DNA of 32,462 nucleotides from positions 1 through 32,462 of the IMG/VR virus record IMGVR_UViG_3300034198_007235; one strand, written 5' to 3'. A model generated the notes under the pieces. It ran no database searches and had not been told where the DNA came from. It saw nothing but the letters and a program-made list of their open reading frames with translations. The stretch comes from a virus. Numbering within the stretch: position 1 is the stretch's first letter; each line of letters opens with the position of its first letter. Of this stretch, positions 2,898 through 27,569 are shown piece by piece. A program made the translations under genes and the position numbers.

Positions 2898-4313
2898 CTA
2901 CAACAACATAAAGTTGTTAGCTCCTAATACTACTAAAGCTCTTTCAGATAAGAAGTTTACAGACATGCTGTCTACTTCACTGTTAGTTGCTCCACCAGCA
3001 GAACCAATAATCCAAGATTTGTATTTTCTATCCTCAGTTTCAGATTTTCTGTAACGAGTGTGTAAGAAAGGTCTCTTAGCGTTTTTACCTAATACTTGGT
3101 CATAAACTGTTAAAGTACCAGCAGGAACTAAAACTCCGTTTACTTCATTTACCAATCCACCAGTTGTAGCATCGTTAAGATATTTCCAATCAGTTTTGTA
3201 GAAATCATAACCTAAGTTAAATCCTTTAAATCCTAAGTTTAAAGCCATGTCTTTTTCGTTATCGAAAAGTCCATAAGAAGCTTGCATAACAGAAGAGTTA
3301 GAGATAGAAGCTAATACTTTATCAATATCAAAAGATAATTGACGATTAACGAAAAGAACGTTTTCTTGAATAGCACCCTCTTTGTCTAAAACTTTGATGA
3401 TGTTTTCAAGGTCTTCTCTATCAGAGATTGTACCAGTACCTACGTTACCTCTATTTTTGATTTCGTAGAATAAACCTTTAGTACCTTTATAACCAGCGCT
3501 TAAAGCGGCAGAACCAGCTACAGCAGGCTCTCCTTCAATCATAGAAGTCTCTAAGTAATCTTCAAAACGTAAACGAGTTTCGTGCTCTGATTTCAAGTAC
3601 CATAAGTAACCTGTAGCACCATTTTCAGTAGTAACTTCAATCCATCCGATTTGAGCCATATCTGAACCATTAACTTCATATTTATCTTTGATGATAATTG
3701 GAGTTGTGTCTAATACTTGAGACTCAGCTTCGATTGAACCAACCATTCCAGGAGTTCCTTTTTTGAACTCAGAACCGTAAACAAATACTTTTAATGCAGA
3801 TGCAGTAGAAGATAAAGCAGTTAAGTCAGCAGCAGAGAAAGGAGCAACAGTAATAACGTCACCTCCTGCAGATACAACAGTAACTAAAGCTTTAACAATA
3901 ACTCCTGTAGTAGAATCTTTGATGATGATAGTTTGGTTTGGTCTAACAGCTGGGTATTTAACTTGAGAACCTGAACCTGTTGAAGGTTGGTAAATACTTT
4001 GATTAGAATCAAAAGTAATTTGAGTAGCTGCTGTTTTAGAAGCAGTACCAAAGATGTGAAGACGACCTTGCTCACTCCATTTAATCATATCTGAAGTAGA
4101 AGGCATTTCAGCTCCAACCATTCTTAAGAATGATGCAACTGAACGATTACCGAATCTTTCAAATTCTTTTTCGTAAAGATCTGGAAGTTCGTGTGATAAG
4201 AAGTCAAATGTACCTACGTAGTTTGTAGATAATGTAGTTTTGACTGGAGCTGGTGTCAACAACGGAGCACCTGAGATGCTGTTGCTTGAAAAATTTACGG
4301 TGTTTAATGCCAT
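2898..4313 (-). CDS. Major capsid protein (HK97-fold, crAss-like)
   Basis: Main structural protein of the capsid, 471 residues, within the 450-510 range of crAss-like major capsid proteins. After a flexible N-terminus, residues about 35-90 contain LPDLYEKEFERFGNRSVASF and a following MVGAEMPSTSDMIKWSEQGR stretch. I recognise this as the N-arm/P-domain signature of crAss-like MCPs. There is no obvious prohead protease site, although N-terminal trimming cannot be excluded. The gene follows the acidic 352-aa gene by 22 bases with no promoter of its own, so both probably share the promoter at 5425-5432. A strong terminator follows. Position between the scaffold candidate and the ring genes matches the crAss-like order. 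Confidence 0.88.
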   Translation of the reverse strand: MALNTVNFSSNSISGAPLLTPAPVKTTLSTNYVGTFDFLSHELPDLYEKEFERFGNRSVASFLRMVGAEMPSTSDMIKWSEQGRLHIFGTASKTAATQITFDSNQSIYQPSTGSGSQVKYPAVRPNQTIIIKDSTTGVIVKALVTVVSAGGDVITVAPFSAADLTALSSTASALKVFVYGSEFKKGTPGMVGSIEAESQVLDTTPIIIKDKYEVNGSDMAQIGWIEVTTENGATGYLWYLKSEHETRLRFEDYLETSMIEGEPAVAGSAALSAGYKGTKGLFYEIKNRGNVGTGTISDREDLENIIKVLDKEGAIQENVLFVNRQLSFDIDKVLASISNSSVMQASYGLFDNEKDMALNLGFKGFNLGYDFYKTDWKYLNDATTGGLVNEVNGVLVPAGTLTVYDQVLGKNAKRPFLHTRYRKSETEDRKYKSWIIGSAGGATNSEVDSMSVNFLSERALVVLGANNFMLL

Positions 4314-5443: not shown

Positions 5444-7867
5444 TTAGTCTACTTTAAACAAGTCATCCATACCACCAAGACTATCCTCTTCATTAAAATC
5501 TATAGGGCTAGTATCTTGCTGTCTTTGGTTTATCATTTTACTTTGCTGTGTTGCTTGTAATTTAGTTCTCTCGTCTTTTCTATCTTCCTTATCCATATCT
5601 TTTTTATGTAACAAATTCATCTCAGCCTGTTTTACTTGACCTTGAAATCCTTGTTGTAATTGAATAAGCTGTGATTTATACTCAAACTCTTTTGCCATCT
5701 TATCCATTTCTAATTGGTGTTTAAGTTGTTCTATCTGAGCATCACTTTGAGATTCAGCTTGAATTATTTGTAACTTACCTTGAGAAGTAGCTTGAGCTAA
5801 TTGAGCTTGACTTTGAGCTTGATTATCAAATGTTTTCTTTTGTAATTCTTGGTCTCTCTCTTCTTTACGTTTTTTCTTAACTTTCAATAATTGAGATGCA
5901 ATTTTAACATTCTTAACATTTCTAATATCTATAGCGTCATCAATGTCAATTTTACCAGCTGCTAATGCTGCTTGTATGTTTTGATTTAATAATTGAGTTT
6001 CTTCTTCATCAGGCATTAAGTTAACATAGATACCGAAATTATACAAATGCAAATCTTTAATTCTATCTATAACATCAACACTTCCAGCTCCAATCATTAA
6101 ACAGAAATCATCTTTCATATCAGAATACTCTAATAAGTCAGACATTCTATAACAAATACATTCAGCAATTCTTCTAGTCATAAATAAACCACTTTGAAGA
6201 ATGTGTCTTGTAGCAGTATTTGAATTTAACGCAGCTAATTTTTGAAGACCAACTAGACTATTTTCATCAGGCATACTTCCATCACGAGCTTCATTAAGTC
6301 CTGTGCTTTGACGAATCATATCTAAGTAGTGATTATACATATTAACGAGACTTTGTATCTTAGCGTTAGCACCTGAAGCTGTAAGCTCTTGAACTGGTGT
6401 TCTTGCATTGTTAAATTCTCCATCTTCTGTATAACTTCTACCTATAACACTACCTGTTTGAAAATATAAGTTTAATGCTTGTTCAGGAGTGTATGATTGA
6501 CCATTACCTAAGTTTACTCCATTAAGACCATCTACATCTAAGAATACACCATCTGGTTTCATTCCTGAGATTACTTGTTGTAATTTTAAATGCGTAAGTT
6601 GTATTTGGTCAGCAAAAGGAATCATTCTTTTAACTAATGAATCTATTGCACCTCTATACATTCTTGGAGCAGACATTATATAAGGAGGATATACTTTAGA
6701 AATAGAAGACTTAGGTCTAACCATATTCTTCATAACTTCCCACTTTAATAAGTAGTTAGTACCCATAACTAAAATACCTTCAAACCAAACATCTATTCTT
6801 TTAGATATTTTTTCAAATTGAGCATCGTCAGTTTTAGGACCTTGAAATTTATCATCTCTTTGTATTACTTTATCTCCTCCATTAGCATTTTTCTTTTTCT
6901 TGTAAACAACATTTAAATCGCTTTTGTATGAAAAGAATAATAATGTAGCAGAGTTATTTCTGATATTACCACCTAAAATAGTTCCTCCTTGAATATTTTG
7001 ATATGCATCCCATTTAGAAGCTAGTTTTGAAATCTCTTTAATCTCTTCTTGAGTTAAATTTGGATTTAATTTTTTAAGTTCAGTAATAGGAACATTTTTA
7101 ACTTCTCCAAAATAATAACAGTCTTGGAACGTAGGGTCTTCAGTTGGACTAAATACCATATTTGCAGGGTCGCAATATTCAATTCTAATTCCGTTATGTG
7201 TATCAAAAGAATGTCTTACTGCTGAAACACCCAATACAACTTGGTCTTCATCAGTTCTTCTTTTAATTAAATCGTAGTTGTTTATATTTAAAACATTTTC
7301 AATAGCTTTTTCTTCTGCAATTTCAATTTCATCTTTGTAAAATTCCATATGCAAATCAAGCTCTTGCTTGTTCTGAGGCATCTCTTCTTCTGGTATTGGA
7401 TACATATCTATACCTAGTAAGTTCTTAGCATCTTTTAAAAGTGGAGCAGCAACCATTGCTTTCTCTACTTCTGTTTTATATTTATTTTTTTTATCAGAAG
7501 ATATGTTATCAACAGCCTCAGCTTTAACTTCATATTGTCTTGTAGACATTCCGTTAACAACTATATCAACAAACTTAGGTATAATTGGAAGTGGAGTCCA
7601 ATCTAAGTTTAAAAAAGAAATATCACCATTAACAGACATTTCTTTCTTATACTTCTGAACAGATTGCTCTCCTCTAGCATATAACCTTAATTTGTGAAAG
7701 TGGTCTCTTGTAGTGTAAAATCTTGAACCATTTAAAGATGTTTTTCTAAACCATTCTGCTTGAATAGAATGTCCAACACTTCTTCCGTAATCTTCACTTT
7801 TCTTAATCTCATCTGTTGCCAGTTGATCAGGAAAATAAATATTAGGCATTGTTAAATCTTGATTCAT
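5444..7867 (-). CDS. Portal protein (crAss-like), 807 aa
   Basis: Forms the dodecameric ring at the capsid vertex through which DNA is packaged and ejected. The length of 807 residues matches crAss-like portals, which are longer than the typical 500-600. Residues about 85-115 contain NLDWTPLPIIPKFVDIVVNG, and residues 470-560 contain VIGRSYTEDGEFNNARTPVQ and STGLNEARDGSMPDENSLVG, typical of the portal stem and crown in this group. The C-terminal region (about 665-780) is a long Q/K/E-rich coiled coil (AQSQAQLAQATSQGKLQIIQ and onward), probably the barrel or an internal extension. It follows TerL by 9 bases in the same unit. No separate head-maturation protease gene is visible. Confidence 0.9.
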   Translation of the reverse strand: MNQDLTMPNIYFPDQLATDEIKKSEDYGRSVGHSIQAEWFRKTSLNGSRFYTTRDHFHKLRLYARGEQSVQKYKKEMSVNGDISFLNLDWTPLPIIPKFVDIVVNGMSTRQYEVKAEAVDNISSDKKNKYKTEVEKAMVAAPLLKDAKNLLGIDMYPIPEEEMPQNKQELDLHMEFYKDEIEIAEEKAIENVLNINNYDLIKRRTDEDQVVLGVSAVRHSFDTHNGIRIEYCDPANMVFSPTEDPTFQDCYYFGEVKNVPITELKKLNPNLTQEEIKEISKLASKWDAYQNIQGGTILGGNIRNNSATLLFFSYKSDLNVVYKKKKNANGGDKVIQRDDKFQGPKTDDAQFEKISKRIDVWFEGILVMGTNYLLKWEVMKNMVRPKSSISKVYPPYIMSAPRMYRGAIDSLVKRMIPFADQIQLTHLKLQQVISGMKPDGVFLDVDGLNGVNLGNGQSYTPEQALNLYFQTGSVIGRSYTEDGEFNNARTPVQELTASGANAKIQSLVNMYNHYLDMIRQSTGLNEARDGSMPDENSLVGLQKLAALNSNTATRHILQSGLFMTRRIAECICYRMSDLLEYSDMKDDFCLMIGAGSVDVIDRIKDLHLYNFGIYVNLMPDEEETQLLNQNIQAALAAGKIDIDDAIDIRNVKNVKIASQLLKVKKKRKEERDQELQKKTFDNQAQSQAQLAQATSQGKLQIIQAESQSDAQIEQLKHQLEMDKMAKEFEYKSQLIQLQQGFQGQVKQAEMNLLHKKDMDKEDRKDERTKLQATQQSKMINQRQQDTSPIDFNEEDSLGGMDDLFKVD

Positions 7868-7876
7868 ATGTACTTT

Positions 7877-10141
7877 TTACTTTATTATTTCGCTATGCAT
7901 TCCTTTGTTAGAATATCTTGCAAAATTAAACATTATTTCGGTATTATTTCTAATGGGTTTTTTAACATAAGTTTGATTTGCCATTATTGCAAGACCACTA
8001 CTAATAGTTGCATCAAACTTTGTACGATTAACTATATCAAAATTTGCCCAATCTAAAAGTGTTCTATTAAAATACATAGCTCCCATACTTCCTTCTTCCC
8101 TAAACTCACCGCTATAATCTATACCTACATATTGATTTATATAGGCTTCTATTGCATTTGCTTGTAACTCAATAGTTTGTGTAGATGATGGAATACCCCC
8201 TAGTTCTTTCTCTGAAGAAGACAAATCATTTTTATGTTTATCAGGTCTATTCAATGAGTAACCTCTATATCCTCTGTTTAAAAAATATTTTAATTGACCT
8301 ACTTTATTGTTCTCAATTAATATTGGCATACCATAAAATACACAAGCCATTAAACAATCTTCATAAAATTCTTCAGATGTTCTAGGTCTTGCTATATATT
8401 CTAAAAAGAAATGATTACTTGGTGCGTCATCCATATTAAATTTTGTAAGTCCGTGAAGAGAACCTTTAGAACCTCCACCTCCTACAACACCTGATATATC
8501 ATATGTATCACACCCAAAACTTCCTATGTGTGCATTTCCAGGATATTTCCTATCATTTTTAAACTCATAGTTATTACGCATCTCAGGTTTTGGTATCCAA
8601 GTAACTTTAAAGTTACCATCTTTGCTAGGTATCCAAACAACCTCACTATCTCTAACACCATTCTTCCAAGCAAACTTACCAGTAGATATCACTCTTGAAT
8701 GTTCTAATCCATCATTAGAATCTATTTGTTCGTATATTTTTGAAAGGTCAAATAAACTATTCTTTGCTTCATCACGGAATGCATGTCCTTCAGTTCTTGG
8801 ATTCTGTCTATAAAATTCATTTAAAGCATCGGAATCTTTCTTTAAAGACTCAACTTTATTCTCAAAGTAATCCAATACACCATCAAGTATGTATCCTCCT
8901 TGAATATCTTCAACTGGTTTCTCGGACTTTCTAAATACTGGGAATCCGTGTAAATCTATATATCCTTCAAAGTTCCATTCCATAGGAATAAATAAAGCAT
9001 ATAATCCACTCGCTGTTTGTCCGTTCTTATCTCTCTTTGTTACATCACTATCGTAATATAATTTTTTAAAATTAGCACCTCCATTAGCTTGTGAGTTACA
9101 CGTGCTACCCATCATACATTTACCTATAAGTTTACGACCAACTCTTAAACAAGTTTGAGTAACCCTCCAGTTATTCTGTATGTTATCAGGTTTTAACCAT
9201 TTACCACTTTCATCGTGTACAAGTAATTTTAATTTTTCTCCATCATAAGAGTTATCTCCTGTATTCTTCCAGTCAATAGAAGTATCTAAACCTTCCATTT
9301 CATCTTGAGCATCAAACATATTATTCTTAGTAATCTTTGAAGCTGGAACACGATAAGACAATTCAGTCTTTGGTTTATCCATACCATCCATAATAGGTTT
9401 GAAAAAGAAAGGATAATTACTTGAGATAGGAACTACTTTGTCTGTAAACATTTTTTTAGCATCACCTCCTGTTTTAGAAAGGATACCAAGTCTTGCATCT
9501 TTTGCAAGTGTTGCTATATTTACAAGTTCAGAGCTACCCATAAATGAAAAACCTGAACGTCTATTTTTTAAATAACACATTCCGAAACTTCTACTATCTG
9601 CTTTACAAGCTTCCCAAAATATCCAAAATATTCTATTACTCTCTCTAAATTCAGGGAGACCAATATCTATTTTAGTCCATTGAAGATACATATAGTGAGA
9701 CCCAGTTATATAAGATGGTTTACCATTGTTCATAAAGAACATTCCTTCTTCCCTTCTGTCAAACTCATTGTCTATATAAGATGTCCATTTTGACTTAAAA
9801 TCATTAGGCATCTCGTTCCACTGAAATATACTTTTTATTTTATGTAATTCTTTAGGATATTCAAAGCTTTCCCAATATTGATTCTCAGGTTTTTTGTCAC
9901 GTTTATATACTAAATTTGTTACAGAAGGTAAGGCTATTTTCAGTCCTTGCACTTCATAAACTTCACCTACAGTTCCATCTTTAGATATGACAACAACATC
10001 AAATTCAGGATTGTATCCATAAGACCATTCCTTCTTTTTATTTAGTCTATCTAAATCTTTTTTAGGTATACAATCTACAATAGAGTAAATGCTACTTTCC
10101 TTTGCTTCTTCTTTCTGCAAAGCTTTCAAATTTTTGCTCAT
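7877..10141 (-). CDS. terL: Terminase large subunit (TerL)
   Basis: ATP-driven DNA packaging motor and headful nuclease, 754 residues, the usual crAss-like size. The ATPase domain has a deviant Walker A around residues 193-199 (NRRSGFS), a Walker B LKLLVHDE at 304-311 ending in the catalytic Glu311, and a coupling motif GSTCNS at 345-350. The nuclease domain begins near 540 with SFGCDTYDISG (Asp545 as a likely metal ligand) and continues with PILIENN (Glu610). The N-terminal ~170 residues are an extension typical of this phage group. The gene overlaps the preceding 95-aa gene by 50 bases, which suggests coupled translation, and is followed by portal after 9 bases. Confidence 0.93.
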   Translation of the reverse strand: MSKNLKALQKEEAKESSIYSIVDCIPKKDLDRLNKKKEWSYGYNPEFDVVVISKDGTVGEVYEVQGLKIALPSVTNLVYKRDKKPENQYWESFEYPKELHKIKSIFQWNEMPNDFKSKWTSYIDNEFDRREEGMFFMNNGKPSYITGSHYMYLQWTKIDIGLPEFRESNRIFWIFWEACKADSRSFGMCYLKNRRSGFSFMGSSELVNIATLAKDARLGILSKTGGDAKKMFTDKVVPISSNYPFFFKPIMDGMDKPKTELSYRVPASKITKNNMFDAQDEMEGLDTSIDWKNTGDNSYDGEKLKLLVHDESGKWLKPDNIQNNWRVTQTCLRVGRKLIGKCMMGSTCNSQANGGANFKKLYYDSDVTKRDKNGQTASGLYALFIPMEWNFEGYIDLHGFPVFRKSEKPVEDIQGGYILDGVLDYFENKVESLKKDSDALNEFYRQNPRTEGHAFRDEAKNSLFDLSKIYEQIDSNDGLEHSRVISTGKFAWKNGVRDSEVVWIPSKDGNFKVTWIPKPEMRNNYEFKNDRKYPGNAHIGSFGCDTYDISGVVGGGGSKGSLHGLTKFNMDDAPSNHFFLEYIARPRTSEEFYEDCLMACVFYGMPILIENNKVGQLKYFLNRGYRGYSLNRPDKHKNDLSSSEKELGGIPSSTQTIELQANAIEAYINQYVGIDYSGEFREEGSMGAMYFNRTLLDWANFDIVNRTKFDATISSGLAIMANQTYVKKPIRNNTEIMFNFARYSNKGMHSEIIK

Positions 10142-10458: not shown

Positions 10459-11922
10459 TTACAATGTAATTTCATTGTATGTAACATACACATCTAAACT
10501 TCCTGTACCTCCTGTTGGATTTCCTCCAACTGCTTTTAATTTATAAGCTCCAGTGGTAGCAGTTCCAGTAACGCTATCTACAATATATAGAGTTGAATTT
10601 ATATATCCAACCTGATTGATTGTTAATGGATTAGGGTTTATTGTATTTTGAGTATCGTTATTAAATTGATCAAGTAACTGCAAAGAGTTGTTAACCAAAG
10701 TATAAGAGTTACCAACATTTCTTCTAATATATAGATTTGTAGGTATGTTTACTTTTCCAGCTGATGGAGCAGGCAATACAACAATAGGAGTTGTAAATAA
10801 CTGCAATACTTGCGCTTGAGAAATAGTTGTTTTTAAAGTCTTTGTAACGATAGTACCAACAGCAAGTGTTCCTGTTTCATTTGGAAACTTAATAAGCTGA
10901 TTACCTGTTAATGTATTTGGTAAAGACAATGCAATGTAATTTGCTCCATTATTAAGTACAATACGATCTGGTTCTAAAAATGAAGTTCCACCACCAGCAA
11001 AAGCTGTTAAAATTTGTCCTGCTGATAAAATAGTTTGATAACTTCCAGCTGAAATTGTATTTCCTACATCGCAAACAGATTGTAAAGAAGGTGAAAATGA
11101 TGATATATCACTTAATAAAGCAACAGTACCACTATTATCAGGAAATTGAATAGTTCTTGCAGCAGATAATGAACTTGGAGGAATTATCTCCAAACTATTA
11201 GCGCCAGCTTTAGTGAATGATAATTTATCCGCAGCTAAAAATGATTCATCATTAGTTATTAGATTACTAACAGCAAAAGAAGCTGAATTTATAAATGACT
11301 GATAATTCGTAGTTGTAACTGTATTACCTAAGTTAATAGTGTCTTGTAATGTTTGAGTAGCAACTCCAATTGGTCCTTGAGGTCCAGTAGCACCAGTAGC
11401 ACCAGTAGGTCCAGCAGGTCCTACAGCTCCTTGAGAAGCTAATAAAGCCCAGTTTGATGTAGCAACAGTTGGATTAGATGTTCCAGATGTAGCTAAAATA
11501 CAAAAATAAGAAGCTCCGTTGTAACCAACTGCGTCATTTAAAATATAAGAAGTTCCTGAAACCCAAGAACCTCTCCAACGAAGTCCAGCAGGTCCTACAG
11601 GTCCTTGTGGTCCAGCAGGTCCAGTAGGTCCGATAGAAGTTAATGTATTATCATCTAAAATAACTTTTAAATCATTAATTAAAGATGCTAAACTAGTGTA
11701 AGCTACGTTAACTGAATTAAATATTTTTTCTACTTCACAAGACAAAATAATACTTCCAGTATATTTTTCTTTAATAACAACTACAACTTTGTTTCCTGGA
11801 GCTACAAATTCATTTGAAGACTCACTAACGTTTACGTTTTCATAGGTTGCTACATAATCTTTTTTTCTGTACAATAGTCCATTTACTTTAAAGTACCTAG
11901 AATCATGATTTTCAATTTTCAT
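10459..11922 (-). CDS. Collagen-like fibre protein with a putative carbohydrate-binding module
   Basis: A 487-residue virion fibre. Residues 1-96 form a beta-rich N-terminal domain. Two collagen Gly-X-Y blocks follow: IGPTGPAGPQGPVGPAG at about 97-113 and VGPAGPTGATGATGPQGPIG at 167-186. Between them residues 114-162 have the aromatic spacing of a small chitin-binding-like module (WRGSW, YILNDAVGYNGASYFC, then a terminal SNWALLA). The C-terminal part carries repeated fibre modules with LQ-x-GNT and FPDNSGTVAL or FPNETGTLAV, also present in the 1504-aa fibre. Collagen blocks trimerise fibres, and the module probably binds host surface glycans. It has its own promoter (11955-11962) and terminator. 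Whether it decorates the capsid or tail cannot be told. Confidence 0.75.
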   Translation of the reverse strand: MKIENHDSRYFKVNGLLYRKKDYVATYENVNVSESSNEFVAPGNKVVVVIKEKYTGSIILSCEVEKIFNSVNVAYTSLASLINDLKVILDDNTLTSIGPTGPAGPQGPVGPAGLRWRGSWVSGTSYILNDAVGYNGASYFCILATSGTSNPTVATSNWALLASQGAVGPAGPTGATGATGPQGPIGVATQTLQDTINLGNTVTTTNYQSFINSASFAVSNLITNDESFLAADKLSFTKAGANSLEIIPPSSLSAARTIQFPDNSGTVALLSDISSFSPSLQSVCDVGNTISAGSYQTILSAGQILTAFAGGGTSFLEPDRIVLNNGANYIALSLPNTLTGNQLIKFPNETGTLAVGTIVTKTLKTTISQAQVLQLFTTPIVVLPAPSAGKVNIPTNLYIRRNVGNSYTLVNNSLQLLDQFNNDTQNTINPNPLTINQVGYINSTLYIVDSVTGTATTGAYKLKAVGGNPTGGTGSLDVYVTYNEITL

Positions 11923-11970: not shown

Positions 11971-12540
11971 TTAGTTTAGTTTTAACACCACATCTCTATC
12001 TGTCATCCTGTATAACTTCTCACCATCTATTTCAAACTCATACTCACTATTCTTTGTAAATGCAACTAAATCTCCTTTTTTAAATCCTAAATCTTCTTGA
12101 GATTTGTTTGGATATATTAAAATACCTGAGTGCTTCTCTTCTTTATCAACATTATGTAGTAATTCATCTTGAATAGTATCGATTGGTTTTACAAAACAAA
12201 AGTTCAAATGTGGATTCCATTCTCCATTATTTCTTTTATACATATAAATCCTATCAGGACTTACTATAAATACACCTTCTCTAAAATACTCTGGAGAATT
12301 AGTTTGTCTACCTTTCATATCAAAATAAACTCTAAATATATTGTGATGTAAAATAACTATGTCTCCAACACAAATATCTCCACTGTAATTTATAGGAATA
12401 GCATCTACAACTCCAAGTCTATTTACATACTTTGCTATTTCTAAAGAGGTGTTAACAACAAAGTCTTCACCTCCTACTTTTTTAATATTATTGTACTTAT
12501 CACCATAAGGCGATATTATAAAATTATATGGACTTTTCAT
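11971..12540 (-). CDS. Tandem (two-barrel) GroES-like co-chaperonin, 189 aa
   Basis: Contains two consecutive GroES-like beta-barrels. Barrel 1 (about 1-105) opens with FIISPYGDKYNNIKKVGGED and contains SGDICVGDIVILHHN at 53-67. Barrel 2 (about 112-189) opens with NFCFVKPID and ends in FKKGDLVAFTKNSEYEFEID and GEKLYRMTDRDVVLKL, which follows the Cpn10 C-terminal pattern of GD-V, a beta-turn, then a 'Y-x-h-x-x-x-D' strand. I recall similar ~190-residue proteins in marine and Bacteroidetes phages. I chose the start at 12540 rather than an upstream Met at 12570 because it lies 1 base after the stop of the 74-aa gene. Likely role: capping a GroEL ring, perhaps the phage's own, during folding of fibre or capsid proteins. 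Assignment is from motif resemblance. Confidence 0.6.
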   Translation of the reverse strand: MKSPYNFIISPYGDKYNNIKKVGGEDFVVNTSLEIAKYVNRLGVVDAIPINYSGDICVGDIVILHHNIFRVYFDMKGRQTNSPEYFREGVFIVSPDRIYMYKRNNGEWNPHLNFCFVKPIDTIQDELLHNVDKEEKHSGILIYPNKSQEDLGFKKGDLVAFTKNSEYEFEIDGEKLYRMTDRDVVLKLN

Positions 12541-12541
12541 A

Positions 12542-12766
12542 TTAGTAATTAATGTTAAATTCAACAACAATAGGAAGATTTTTATTTATATTCTTCCATA
12601 TTACCACTTCTTTATCATCATTTTCTATCCATACAAAATACCCTAAATCATCTACAGTTATAGCGTGTATTTTATAATTACCTCCAAGAACTTCTTGATT
12701 AACTAAATAGTGCATTGAATTTTTATAATCAACACCAATAGTTATTTTTCTTATTTCATTTTTCAT
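12542..12766 (-). CDS. Hypothetical protein, 74 aa
   Basis: A 74-residue beta-rich protein with no motif I recognise. It alternates hydrophobic strands and polar turns (GNYKIHAITVDDLGYFVWIE) and is slightly acidic. Its stop is 1 base before the start of the double GroES-like gene, and it is the first gene after the promoter at 12788-12795, so the two are translated from one message. A role linked to the co-chaperonin is only an inference from that arrangement. Confidence 0.6.
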   Translation of the reverse strand: MKNEIRKITIGVDYKNSMHYLVNQEVLGGNYKIHAITVDDLGYFVWIENDDKEVVIWKNINKNLPIVVEFNINY

Positions 12767-13644: not shown

Positions 13645-13876
13645 TTTCTTTTTGTTTTATATATTTAATTTTTTTCTTTATTTTTATATTTTCAATGTAT
13701 ATTGTATCTATTTTTTTTTGTTCTTTAGCTATCTCAACATCTAATTTTTTTCTTTTTTCAATAAGTGGTTTTAACTCTCCCTCTCCTATAATAGTTACAA
13801 ATATCCAAAAAGCAATAACTACAAATCCAAACCATTGTTTTTTTATAAATCTTAATATTAAATTTATATTTATCAT
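13553..13876 (-). CDS. Inner-membrane spanin-like protein (Rz-type), 107 aa
   Basis: One N-terminal membrane helix (residues about 15-31, WFGFVVIAFWIFVTIIG) is followed by a long, highly charged periplasmic coiled coil (about 35-90, with repeated EK/KK/IDT motifs). This is the plan of an i-spanin, which spans the periplasm and, with its outer-membrane partner, fuses the membranes in the last step of lysis. The start overlaps the endolysin stop by 4 bases (ATGA), which suggests translational coupling. Its 3' part overlaps the 148-aa secreted protein by 92 bases. Family-level similarity to Rz is by architecture, not sequence. Confidence 0.65.
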   Translation of the reverse strand: MININLILRFIKKQWFGFVVIAFWIFVTIIGEGELKPLIEKRKKLDVEIAKEQKKIDTIYIENIKIKKKIKYIKQKENDTIKIIDTMSISELQRYFSDRYNKKDSIN

Positions 13877-14346
13877 ACTATTTCTTTTTTATATTTCTGT
13901 AGTAATTTCTTTCTTTCTTCAATTCCATTATAACCTCCATTTATTTTTTTAGTTATAAGCATTATATTATCTGTATCTGCAATATAATTTAACTTGTGCT
14001 TAGACCAAAACCACAAAGCAGATATTAAGGCATTAGCTTCTTCTTCTAATAATTCAGGGTGATTTAAGAAATCTATTTTAGTATCTTTTGATAAAGCAGT
14101 ATAATTTGCCTTTCCTGTTATTTGTATATAACCCCTACCTTTATATCTTAAACCATCACCTGGTTTGGTATTACCTAAATCTAATCTACCCTCATATTTT
14201 TTAAAATAAGAGTCTTTACCTAATTCTTTAGTATATTTAAAACCTCCGCTTTCATGGTCTACTTGAGCCATAAAATGAGCTTTTCTTAAATTAGTATTGA
14301 TTTGATAATCATCTAATATTGACTTATATTTTTCGTATAATTTCAT
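13873..14346 (-). CDS. GH19-type endolysin (chitinase-like muramidase)
   Basis: A 157-residue glycoside hydrolase family 19 protein that cleaves peptidoglycan glycan strands during lysis. Clear signatures: AHFMAQVDHESGGFKYTKE around residues 23-41 with the catalytic acid Glu32, the second acidic residue Glu52 in KYEGRLDLGN, RYKGRGYIQITGKANY at 67-82, and INGGYNG near 135-141. Short single-domain GH19 proteins of this size are endolysins in phages (for example the SPN1S type) rather than chitinases. No signal peptide is present, so release depends on a holin. It overlaps the upstream 64-aa membrane gene by 1 base (TAATG) and the downstream i-spanin by 4 bases, forming a tight lysis cassette. 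Confidence 0.9.
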   Translation of the reverse strand: MKLYEKYKSILDDYQINTNLRKAHFMAQVDHESGGFKYTKELGKDSYFKKYEGRLDLGNTKPGDGLRYKGRGYIQITGKANYTALSKDTKIDFLNHPELLEEEANALISALWFWSKHKLNYIADTDNIMLITKKINGGYNGIEERKKLLQKYKKEIV

Positions 14347-24546: not shown

Positions 24547-24714
24547 TTATTCTGCTACAGCAACAGGCTCTTCTTCTGCAACAGGAGTTCTCATCTCTAA
24601 TAAAAGGTCCAATGCAGTATTAACAACTGCTGAATCTTTTAAGTTAAACACTCCTTTTGTAGCAGCCATATTTAATGCTTGCTCAACTACTGTAATTGCT
24701 TGATCTAAATTCAT
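24547..24714 (-). CDS. Small helical protein, 55 aa
   Basis: A 55-codon frame from ATG at 24714 to TAA at 24547. Sequence: two helices (MNLDQAITVVEQALNMAATK and DSAVVNTALDLLLEMRTPVA) and an acidic tail EEEPVAVAE. I recall similar 'AI--VEQAL--A---G-F-L-D' small proteins in other phages, without function. It starts 19 bases after the GroES-like stop, so it is the last gene of the chaperonin unit. Confidence 0.6.
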   Translation of the reverse strand: MNLDQAITVVEQALNMAATKGVFNLKDSAVVNTALDLLLEMRTPVAEEEPVAVAE

Positions 24715-24733: not shown

Positions 24734-24994
24734 TTAAAGTACGATTCTAATGTCATTCTCGCTAATGACTAGATATTTATTACCCTCTATTCTTATTTCA
24801 CTTGCGTTGGTCCTATCATAATATATTTTATCTCCTATATTAATCCCATTTACCAAATCACCAGTTAAAAAAACATCTGCTAATTTATATCTTATTTCTC
24901 TATCGTTGGCCTCAGTTATTACTAATCCAACTTTGTTTTTTACCTCTTCTTTAATTGGAGATATAACTATTGTTCTTCGGAATGCTTTTGCCAT
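24734..24994 (-). CDS. GroES-like co-chaperonin, 86 aa
   Basis: Short Cpn10-like protein (86 versus about 95 residues). The N-terminus RRTIVISPIKEEVKNKVGLV matches the first strand and the approach to the mobile loop. The C-terminal half, VNGINIGDKIYYDRTNASEI followed by RIEGNKYLVISENDIRIVL, follows the Cpn10 pattern 'hGD-V-y...h...g--Yhhh---dI'. The usual mobile-loop triad GGI/GGL is reduced to VGLV, so contact with a GroEL apical domain may differ from the host pair. It follows groEL by 3 bases, so the gene order is groEL-groES, the reverse of the usual bacterial operon. Likely role: lid for the phage GroEL. Confidence 0.75.
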   Translation of the reverse strand: MAKAFRRTIVISPIKEEVKNKVGLVITEANDREIRYKLADVFLTGDLVNGINIGDKIYYDRTNASEIRIEGNKYLVISENDIRIVL

Positions 24995-24997
24995 TTG

Positions 24998-26575
24998 TTA
25001 AGCTCTTTTGTTTGTTATTGTTGCTTCAGTAGTAAGTAATATAGATGATACAGACACAGCATTCTCAATTGCGTTACGAACAACTTTAGTTGCATCAATA
25101 ACTCCCATTTTAAACATATCCCCAAACTGCTCAGTTATTACATTATAACCATAACCTCTAGTCTCTGATTTCTCAATATTCTCATAAATACTTTGTGGGT
25201 TAACACCTGCATTTTTTAATATTTGATTTAACGGAGATGATAACGCGTATCTAACAGCGTAATATCCTTTCATATAATCTGAATCCATTTTAGGAGTTCT
25301 TAGAGACATTAATACATCCGCTAATGCTATTCCTCCTCCAGGTAAAATACCTTCTTCTAACGCAGCCTTTGTAGCTTTAATCGCATCATCAACTCTGTCT
25401 TTCTTCTCGTTCATCTCAACCTCGCTATTAGCTCCTACTTTTACTACTGCGATACCACCACATAATCTACCAAGTCTATCTTCGTAATGCCACAAATCTA
25501 ATTTGTTCTCTGAGTTTTCAATGCTCTCTCTAACATTAGCAGTTCTAGCTTCAATATCATCAATGTATTTCTCTCTATCTGTGATTAAAATAGTTTGGTG
25601 TAAATCAGAGATACATTTAAATGCCTCTCCTAAATAAGATGCGTCTACAGTAGATAAATCATTTCCTGTTTCATCAGATGCAAGTGTAGCTCCTGTTAAT
25701 GCACATAAGTCTTCTAAAAGTTCAAATCTTTTAATACCAAACCCTTCAGGTGATACTACATTTACTTTGATAACTCCTTTGGCTTTATTTACATTAAGAG
25801 TATTCATAACTCCATCATCTATATCAGAGATTATCAGAAGACTTCTCTTGTTTTGCATAGCAGCTTCACATAGTGGTAATATATCCTCAAGGCTTTTAAT
25901 TTCTTGGTCAGATACAAATACTAATGGATTTTCTAATACACACTCTTGTTTTTGTTGGTTTGTAACTAAATATGGAGAGTTATATCCTTTTTTAATTTTA
26001 GTTCCATCAATAATATCTACATATGTTTTAGATGACATACTTTCTTCCATTGTAACAACACCATCTACACCAACTTTTAAATAAGCATCGGCAATAATAT
26101 CTCCAAGCTCCGAATCATTGTTAGCTGAAATCCTAGCGACACTCTTAAGAGTTTTGTTATTAACTTTTTTACTTTGTTTTTTAAGGGCCTCAACAACGTC
26201 TTTTGAAGCAGCCTCCATACCTTTTTTAAACTGAGATATGTTTGTCTTTTCATCTATTAATGTAATTGCTTTATTTACAATACTTTGCGTTATTACTGCT
26301 GTTGTAGTAGTTCCATCTCCAGCATTATCAGCACTTCTATTTGATGCTTGTTTGATAATACTAGCACCAAGATTTTCCGTAGCATCTGAAAGCACGATAG
26401 ATTTTGCAACAGTAACACCATCTTTTGATAGGTGTGGTAAACCTCTCTCATCTTCTATAGCAACATTTCTACCTGCTGCTCCTAGTGTAACTTTTACTGC
26501 ATCTGCAACAATGTTAACACCATTAATAAGTTTTCTTTTGGCTTCGTCTCCAAATAAGATTTCTTTTTCAATCAT
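24998..26575 (-). CDS. groEL: Phage GroEL (Hsp60 chaperonin)
   Basis: A 525-residue ATP-dependent chaperonin. Key residues keep the E. coli numbering at the N-terminus: TLGAAGRN at 30-37 (P33 and K34 of the usual TLGPKGRN are both Ala), KDGVTVAK with Asp52, and AGDGTTTT at 85-92 with Asp87. The C-terminal catalytic motif RVDDAIKATKAALEEG has Asp397 (equivalent to Asp398), followed by LPGGGIAL. All three ATPase aspartates are present, so it should be active. The apical domain is diverged (SPEGFGIKRFELLEDLCALT near 275-294), and the C-terminus stops at ITNKRA with no Gly-Gly-Met tail. It is cotranscribed with a 44-aa gene upstream and a GroES-like gene downstream. It may fold capsid or fibre proteins the host system handles poorly. 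Confidence 0.95.
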   Translation of the reverse strand: MIEKEILFGDEAKRKLINGVNIVADAVKVTLGAAGRNVAIEDERGLPHLSKDGVTVAKSIVLSDATENLGASIIKQASNRSADNAGDGTTTTAVITQSIVNKAITLIDEKTNISQFKKGMEAASKDVVEALKKQSKKVNNKTLKSVARISANNDSELGDIIADAYLKVGVDGVVTMEESMSSKTYVDIIDGTKIKKGYNSPYLVTNQQKQECVLENPLVFVSDQEIKSLEDILPLCEAAMQNKRSLLIISDIDDGVMNTLNVNKAKGVIKVNVVSPEGFGIKRFELLEDLCALTGATLASDETGNDLSTVDASYLGEAFKCISDLHQTILITDREKYIDDIEARTANVRESIENSENKLDLWHYEDRLGRLCGGIAVVKVGANSEVEMNEKKDRVDDAIKATKAALEEGILPGGGIALADVLMSLRTPKMDSDYMKGYYAVRYALSSPLNQILKNAGVNPQSIYENIEKSETRGYGYNVITEQFGDMFKMGVIDATKVVRNAIENAVSVSSILLTTEATITNKRA

Positions 26576-26814: not shown

Positions 26815-27033
26815 ATGAGCAATAAATTTGTAAAAAACTGTCAGATATTATTAAAATCTTTTCAAGAGACTGGAAATATAGAATACCTTCTTTACTTAGA
26901 GTCTGACTTACATGAATTTTTAGATGAGACAGTTGAAGATTACCTTGAAGAGAAAAATGATTCTTACATCGATGAAAACACAAGTTTTTCGTCTTGTTTT
27001 TATTTTCAATGGAATTCTGACTCTACTTTATAA
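26815..27033 (+). CDS. Hypothetical acidic protein, 72 aa
   Basis: A 72-residue, acidic, mainly helical protein (LESDLHEFLDETVEDYLEEK). No family is recognised. Support for the gene: a clean TATATTTG promoter 24 bases upstream, mirrored with that of the chaperonin unit, and a codon pattern like its neighbours. Its 3' end overlaps the 3' end of the converging oxygenase gene by 28 bases. Divergence from the chaperonin unit suggests shared control. Confidence 0.55.
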   Translation: MSNKFVKNCQILLKSFQETGNIEYLLYLESDLHEFLDETVEDYLEEKNDSYIDENTSFSSCFYFQWNSDSTL

Positions 27034-27569
27034 AAACACACTAATACTATCCTTTCACCACTATCTATTTTCTTTGGGTATTTTGAATGAAAGTAATTTG
27101 AATCATACATAAGTAATCTGTTTGGTCTTGATGATATATAATCTAATCTGTTCCATTTACTCTCGTCATTACTATCATTTATTATTAAATCATCAAACTC
27201 TTCATCAGAACAATTCTCAGGTAGTTTAAGACCATAATCTTTATGTTCATAAAAACAAGTTCCATTATCAGTAACTCCTTCTGATTTATTTATATATAAT
27301 ACACACGCTATAGATGTTTTTTCTCCATTTATGATATTGTCTGCATGTATTCTTATATCTTCATCAAAACCATTGTATGCATTTCTGATAAATCCTAATA
27401 CTGGGGAAAGTCCTTTAAACTTAAAATAGTCAGTTATATTCTCAGGTATGTTTAAAACTGAGAATTCTTTCTCACCTGCCTTTACAATTTGAAAATTATT
27501 GTTGTAGCAATAGTCTTGTAGTTCATTGAATACTTCTTGTGGTAAAAAATTATCTGTTACTTGTATCAT
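27006..27569 (-). CDS. 2-oxoglutarate/Fe(II)-dependent oxygenase, 187 aa
   Basis: A 187-residue double-stranded beta-helix dioxygenase of the prolyl-hydroxylase-like class. The iron triad is HxD at His75/Asp77 (IRIHADN) and His161 (SNYFHSKYP). Arg173 (GERIVLVCFY), about 12 residues after the distal His, is in position to bind 2-oxoglutarate. The intervening ACVLYINKS and NGTCFYEHKDYG fit the family. These enzymes oxidise a protein, small-molecule or nucleic-acid substrate using oxygen and 2-oxoglutarate. The substrate cannot be inferred here. It overlaps the stop of the 80-aa gene by 1 base and is last in the unit led by the two-HTH regulator. Confidence 0.85.
   Translation of the reverse strand: MIQVTDNFLPQEVFNELQDYCYNNNFQIVKAGEKEFSVLNIPENITDYFKFKGLSPVLGFIRNAYNGFDEDIRIHADNIINGEKTSIACVLYINKSEGVTDNGTCFYEHKDYGLKLPENCSDEEFDDLIINDSNDESKWNRLDYISSRPNRLLMYDSNYFHSKYPKKIDSGERIVLVCFYKVESEFH

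Follow-up and report, generated by a model that had tools for sequence, protein, structure and literature searches.

The window, that is, the whole stretch of DNA analyzed here, is an IMG/VR virus record of 32,462 bases from a phage of Bacteroidota-type bacteria. Two genes, groEL and groES, lie near the upstream end of a minus-strand array that runs on to the tail, terL, portal, and capsid genes. A third gene of chaperonin type, at 11971-12540 on the same strand, was left out of the preliminary description of this DNA. The features referred to below are as follows.

27006-27569, minus strand: DUF6445 protein (PF20043, 2.4e-6; PHROG 'minor coat protein'), upstream of groEL
24998-26575, minus strand: groEL-like group I chaperonin, 525 aa (PF00118, PHROG 5725, residue mapping)
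24734-24994, minus strand: groES-like single-domain Cpn10, 86 aa (PF00166), directly 3' of groEL
24547-24714, minus strand: 55-aa ORF directly after groES, its position kept in the IMG/VR relatives L002 and L004
14940-17126, minus strand: protein of 728 aa with BspA-type leucine-rich repeats in six stretches (LRR_5, 7.7e-48), adjoining the lysis genes
13873-14346, minus strand: endolysin with a GH19 (chitinase class I) domain (PF00182, 6.7e-8)
11971-12540, minus strand: predicted tandem Cpn10 (Cpn20-like) protein, 189 aa, counted from a conserved ATG at 12540 (in the mechanical ORF, the start is a TTG at 12570)
10459-11922, minus strand: tail-fibre-like protein containing collagen-like G-X-Y runs; its gene is flanked by the tandem Cpn10 gene and a 95-aa ORF before terL
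7877-10141, minus strand: terminase large subunit, TerL (PHROG 6681, 3.9e-164), a lineage marker downstream of the tandem Cpn10 gene
5444-7867, minus strand: portal protein (PHROG 6547, 7e-154)
2898-4313, minus strand: putative major capsid protein, judged by its gene lying behind the portal gene (PHROG 13704 'virion structural protein', 6.3e-92)

The 55-aa ORF has no match in Pfam and no significant match in PHROG. Phage Panino, too, has a DUF6445 homologue close to groEL, separated from it by one ORF, and in L131 a homologue immediately follows the tandem Cpn10 gene. A receptor-binding or adhesion role is possible for the leucine-rich repeat protein. The window holds no tRNA, and a search of it for the Bacteroidota promoter pattern gives 8 matches (3.7 expected), none of them ahead of groEL.

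The preliminary description called this a crAss-like genome. The term is too strong, but 'distant relative of Crassvirales' is fair. The PHROGs of TerL (6681) and portal (6547) are common to the Crassvirales phage phi14:2, and the direct similarity of TerL to the gut crAss-type TerLs is marginal, with about 21-22% identity. The capsid protein is not of the crAss type: its PHROG (13704) differs from that of phi14:2 (11589), and a capsid search at E 0.01 retrieves nothing beyond flavophages and the Manatee Spring phage. By TerL and capsid, the nearest kin are the Manatee Spring phage (63.5% identity in TerL and 55.6% to its structural protein) and the Elemovirus phage elemo (43% and 46%), followed by the Cellulophaga phages of Pervagoviridae and Pachyviridae. 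The records of Elemovirus, Pervagoviridae, and Pachyviridae do not assign them to Crassvirales. The lineage that carries the groEL-groES pair is a large phage group, uncultured for the most part.

The groEL ORF has no internal stop. Its product matches PF00118 (E 4.5e-60) over profile positions 1-489 of 490 and PHROG 5725 'chaperonin groEL' (E 1.5e-140). It is a full-length, three-domain group I chaperonin in which K51 and the ATPase aspartates D52, D87, and D397 (D398 in E. coli) are all in place. The three aspartates, the replacement of both P33 and K34 by alanine (VTLGAAGRN), and the absence of a Gly-Gly-Met tail (the C-terminus reads TTEATITNKRA) agree with the preliminary description. The same description spoke of a divergent ATP loop. 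The loop is altered at residues 33 and 34, but all catalytic residues are kept. Among the 23 GroELs of the phage clade to which the window belongs (see below), K51, D52, D87, D398, and D495 are invariant and residue 33 is alanine in 13; residue 34 is lysine in none of the 18 non-redundant members. Because residue 34 is never lysine in the clade and the catalytic residues are retained, the change is a lineage trait and not a sign of an inactive site. Likewise, the columns of the ATP/Mg site are retained at 85% across the phage clade, compared with 60% for other conserved columns (permutation p 0.0001), consistent with an intact ATP site.

The groES gene follows groEL after 3 nt, directly behind it as had been described. 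The 86-aa product matches PF00166 (Cpn10) with an E of 3.2e-8, which exceeds the curated cut-off, and carries GLVI at the position of the mobile loop. Its AlphaFold2 model has a pLDDT of 81, falling below 50 only at residues 23-30, which lie in the mobile loop. The model superimposes on M. tuberculosis Cpn10 (PDB 1p3h) with a Z of 11.9 over 83 residues, indicating that the protein is predicted to adopt the Cpn10 fold, as the preliminary description expected. The roof segment comprises 9 residues, as it does in 27 of 29 phage sequences, whereas it comprises 13 residues in 19 of 23 Bacteroidota and 18 in most others; Campylobacterota also have short roofs of 9-11 residues. In T4, gp31 has a reduced roof and enlarges the cage. 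The short roof of the phage GroES recalls that principle by analogy, although short roofs occur in Campylobacterota too.

In bacteria, GroES lies 5' of GroEL at all 78 loci where a GroES was found, and the window has the opposite order. The groEL gene is followed by groES on the same strand in the elemo phages of Flavobacterium (68 Flavobacterium records matched) and the Manatee Spring podovirus, and also in the Maribacter phage Panino, where one ORF intervenes and the GroES carries no annotation. Among 22 listed IMG/VR loci of the lineage, most reached via the tandem gene and three via GroEL, the small GroES is 3' of GroEL in 20; one other has it 3.3 kb downstream, and one is a contig-end fragment. 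The Pervagoviridae phages phi38:1 and Calle_1 have the arrangement Cpn10-ORF-GroEL instead. Since the IMG/VR relatives mostly have GroEL before GroES and bacteria have GroES first, the order is a lineage trait. The reversal noted in the preliminary description is thus real with respect to bacteria, but it is the norm in the lineage and not peculiar to this genome. The small GroES gene of Panino, at 40968-41234 (minus strand), is annotated as hypothetical and was found by profile search two genes after groEL.

To place the GroEL, we use a tree of 41 sequences, from which EL, JM-2012, and others were left out after an earlier, less well resolved tree. The window, two close IMG/VR relatives, elemo, the Manatee Spring phage, Panino, phi38:1, and Calle_1 form one phage clade, set apart from bacteria and from other phages by a branch with support 97/90. 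Forcing the window group together with flavobacteria is rejected by the AU test (p-AU 0.0097). The window GroEL is about 42-45% identical to GroELs of Bacteroidota; no phage GroEL other than those of its immediate relatives L002-L004 exceeds this, which could be taken to indicate that a host groESL operon was captured recently. The tree and the AU test oppose such a capture, as do the reversed gene order, the shortened roof, and the missing GGM tail. Recent capture is thus highly improbable, and we reject it on the tree and the AU test, with the caveat that several phage sequences have long branches. The GroEL does not nest among flavobacterial sequences, and the long independent evolution proposed in the preliminary description is borne out. 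Capture of groEL did happen in other phages, because the GroEL of Bacteroides phage SJC03, for example, nests within Bacteroidota in the tree, as does that of LR756501. Separately, contig CALPIT020000291.1, which bears the label of a Streptomyces griseus MAG, has a GroEL that falls inside Chitinophagaceae; this contig is probably mis-binned or mislabelled.

The apical domain, which the preliminary description regarded as diverged, is indeed the most changed domain across the phage clade. Columns conserved in bacteria are retained at 41% in the apical domain, compared with 60% in the equatorial and 62% in the intermediate domain. In the groove of the apical domain where GroES and substrates make contact, the window has the changes F204L, L237C, L259M, and V263N, and L234 is replaced by glutamate in many relatives. 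Taken together, the groove positions do not exceed the remainder of the apical domain in divergence (p 0.46). If GroEL and GroES have co-evolved, such changes are as expected next to a GroES of the phage's own. However, V263N, and L234E in relatives, could equally fit reduced binding of lid or substrate.

The contacts between rings are changed as well. In the window, T105, E109, N452, N461, Q463, and S464 replace K, A, R, E, S, and V, respectively; R452, E461, S463, and V464 are the sites altered in SR1, a single-ring mutant of E. coli. The testable inter-ring columns, only three in number, show 20% identity in the clade and equatorial columns 60% (permutation p 0.03). The changed contacts therefore predict either a single ring or a new interface. 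That the phage chaperonin is a single ring with altered allostery, like those of OBP and AR9, has a chance only a little short of even in our estimation; surface contacts diverge easily, and the double ring could be held by a new interface. A single ring is compatible with a self-contained chaperonin system, not opposed to it.

The third gene lies 12 kb from groEL. Its product matches PHROG 13932 'co-chaperonin GroES' (1.1e-22), and Pfam Cpn10 matches its C-terminal end only, below the cut-off. The C-terminal half aligns with the bacterial GroES profile with an hhalign probability of 96.9%. The N-terminal half is weak as a Cpn10 by sequence (hhalign 14-26%) and does not match the C-terminal half of the same protein by direct hhalign (3.4%). 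The predicted model of the whole protein has a pLDDT of 83. Over its full length, the model is matched best in the PDB by Cpn20 of Chlamydomonas (7ekq chain R), with a Z of 11.6 and an rmsd of 3.6 over 164 residues and a Foldseek E of 2.3e-5; against single Cpn10s, residues 107-189 reach a Z of up to 8.6 and residues 1-101 a Z of 7.4. By the model, the protein comprises two Cpn10 domains in one chain. The identity of the C-terminal half is secure, and that of the N-terminal half comes mainly from the predicted model.

A search of IMG/VR with the tandem protein yields at least 597 relatives. In all of the best 80, terL lies downstream of the tandem ORF, and the distance from the end of that ORF to the ORF matching terL is 184 to 1217 bases, mostly 200-300. 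A protein of phi14:2, g095, has the same size and place but no match to the tandem protein, and we reject it as a homologue. The constant place 5' of terL amid head genes, seen in the best 80 of at least 597 relatives, would also suit a virion or packaging protein that took over the GroES barrel without acting as a co-chaperonin. The N-terminal domain carries the highly conserved motifs HHN and DMKGR, which have no counterpart in GroES, and the residues of the mobile loop are conserved only in part; both features point in the same direction. Against such a role, both Cpn10 domains are complete in the predicted model and Cpn20 is its best match, the C-terminal domain is clearly Cpn10 by sequence, and GroEL is also encoded in all ten long records of the lineage among the matches listed. 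We consider it unlikely that the tandem protein is such a virion or packaging protein.

These ten records, each of at least 46 kb and carrying the tandem gene, are all those of that length among the matches listed, and all ten encode a small GroES in addition to GroEL; one of them, that of L002, was found through its GroEL, which is therefore not an independent observation. In the wider phage group the association is looser. The Pachyviridae phage phi18:3 encodes a full-length tandem homologue, gp096 (profile E 1e-18, hhalign 99.9%), one gene from terL, and GroEL is absent from its whole record; no GroEL was found in Gundel_1 either. The tandem lid may therefore be older than GroEL in the wider phage group. 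This would be expected if the tandem protein were a specialized lid for the host GroEL, as T4 gp31 is, and groEL-groES were a separate module acquired later. The location of the tandem gene, which stays with terL while groEL lies elsewhere, is in line with that explanation. However, the presence of both genes in all ten long records among the matches listed argues against it, as do the loops of the tandem protein, which have no close match to the GGIVL loop of bacteria. A host-directed lid is possible but rather improbable.

The likeliest reading is that late proteins are folded in a chamber which the phage itself supplies, and that the tandem protein serves as a second or mixed lid. We think it probable that a GroEL ring, a single GroES lid, and a two-domain co-chaperonin make up a self-contained group I chaperonin system of the phage. 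The groEL and groES genes would probably share a transcript. The ring, dependent on ATP, would take up ATP and unfolded late proteins of the phage, the capsid protein being the most plausible. By analogy with gp23 and gp31 of T4, late proteins such as the capsid protein are probably the clients. A lid of Cpn10 domains would then close the chamber, and the tandem Cpn20-like co-chaperonin, although encoded with the packaging genes, would act as a lid too. The simplest lids of seven domains would consist of seven single proteins, or of three tandem proteins and one single protein. A hetero-oligomeric lid in the style of chloroplasts, for example of three tandem proteins and one single Cpn10, serving a phage GroEL that may be single-ring, would represent an independent viral use of the Cpn20 principle; we regard this as doubtful. 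We infer that the three products work as one system from the retention of the ATP site, the GroES fold with its flexible loop, the match of both tandem halves to GroES, the co-occurrence of the genes, and their position in the array. Counted against it are the weak sequence match of the N-terminal half, the 12 kb gap, the groove changes, and the lidless chaperonins of EL, OBP, and AR9.

Pairs of phage GroEL and GroES are already known and annotated in the lineage of the window, including in isolates. 'Chaperonin cpn10' is among the core proteins of Pervagoviridae (PMC8776804), and GroEL and GroES homologues are mentioned in the paper on Panino (PMC11590407). The new part is the three-gene set with a Cpn20-like lid: a non-exhaustive search of open papers found no report of two co-chaperonins, or of a tandem one, in these phages, and literature searches for crAss phages with GroEL and for elemo with GroEL found nothing. 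A gene whose annotation went no further than 'co-chaperonin GroES' or 'hypothetical' thereby becomes a lineage marker adjoining terL.

The arrangement closely resembles that of elemo, in which groEL (gp43) and groES (gp44) are adjacent on one strand in the same order, and gp30, a 180-aa protein annotated as GroES, adjoins terL; the annotation is silent on a tandem nature. The proteins themselves differ: GroEL is only 39.7% and GroES 29% identical, and elemo reads GDSTTC in the ATP loop instead of GDGTTT. The nearest annotated genome is that of the Manatee Spring phage (Podoviridae sp. ctfjg026, MW202828), which also has groEL followed by cpn10 and a tandem homologue, annotated as hypothetical, before terL; its GroEL is 36% and its GroES 35% identical to those of the window. 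The Pervagoviridae phages phi38:1 and Calle_1 likewise encode GroEL and a small Cpn10, and phi38:1 has a 194-aa gene annotated as GroES adjoining terL, but their Cpn10 is ahead of GroEL with one ORF between, and GroEL is 38% identical.

Beyond the lineage, the closest structural parallel is chloroplast Cpn20 (Chlamydomonas, 7ekq chain R), in which two Cpn10 domains are joined head to tail as in the model of the tandem protein, although the identity is 13% and the tandem protein is encoded by a phage. According to PMC5780408, the type with two tandem Cpn10 domains is specific to chloroplasts, and in Chlamydomonas CPN20 and CPN23 assemble with the single-domain subunit so that the complexes contain seven GroES-like domains. 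T4 gp31 is a phage-encoded GroES analogue, and the model of the single GroES matches 1g31 and 2cgt; gp31, however, acts on the host GroEL, whereas the window phage also encodes a GroEL. Phages EL, OBP, and AR9 encode GroEL orthologues, as the window does, but these function without a co-chaperonin (PMC9598537), and the GroEL of EL is only 23% identical and distant in the tree. The lineage of the window thus combines a barrel, a single lid, and a predicted two-domain lid, while the chaperonins of EL, OBP, and AR9 work without a lid and T4-type phages have only a lid for the host GroEL. Its cultured flavophages allow asking why a virus needs both lids and whether mixed lids exist beyond plastids.
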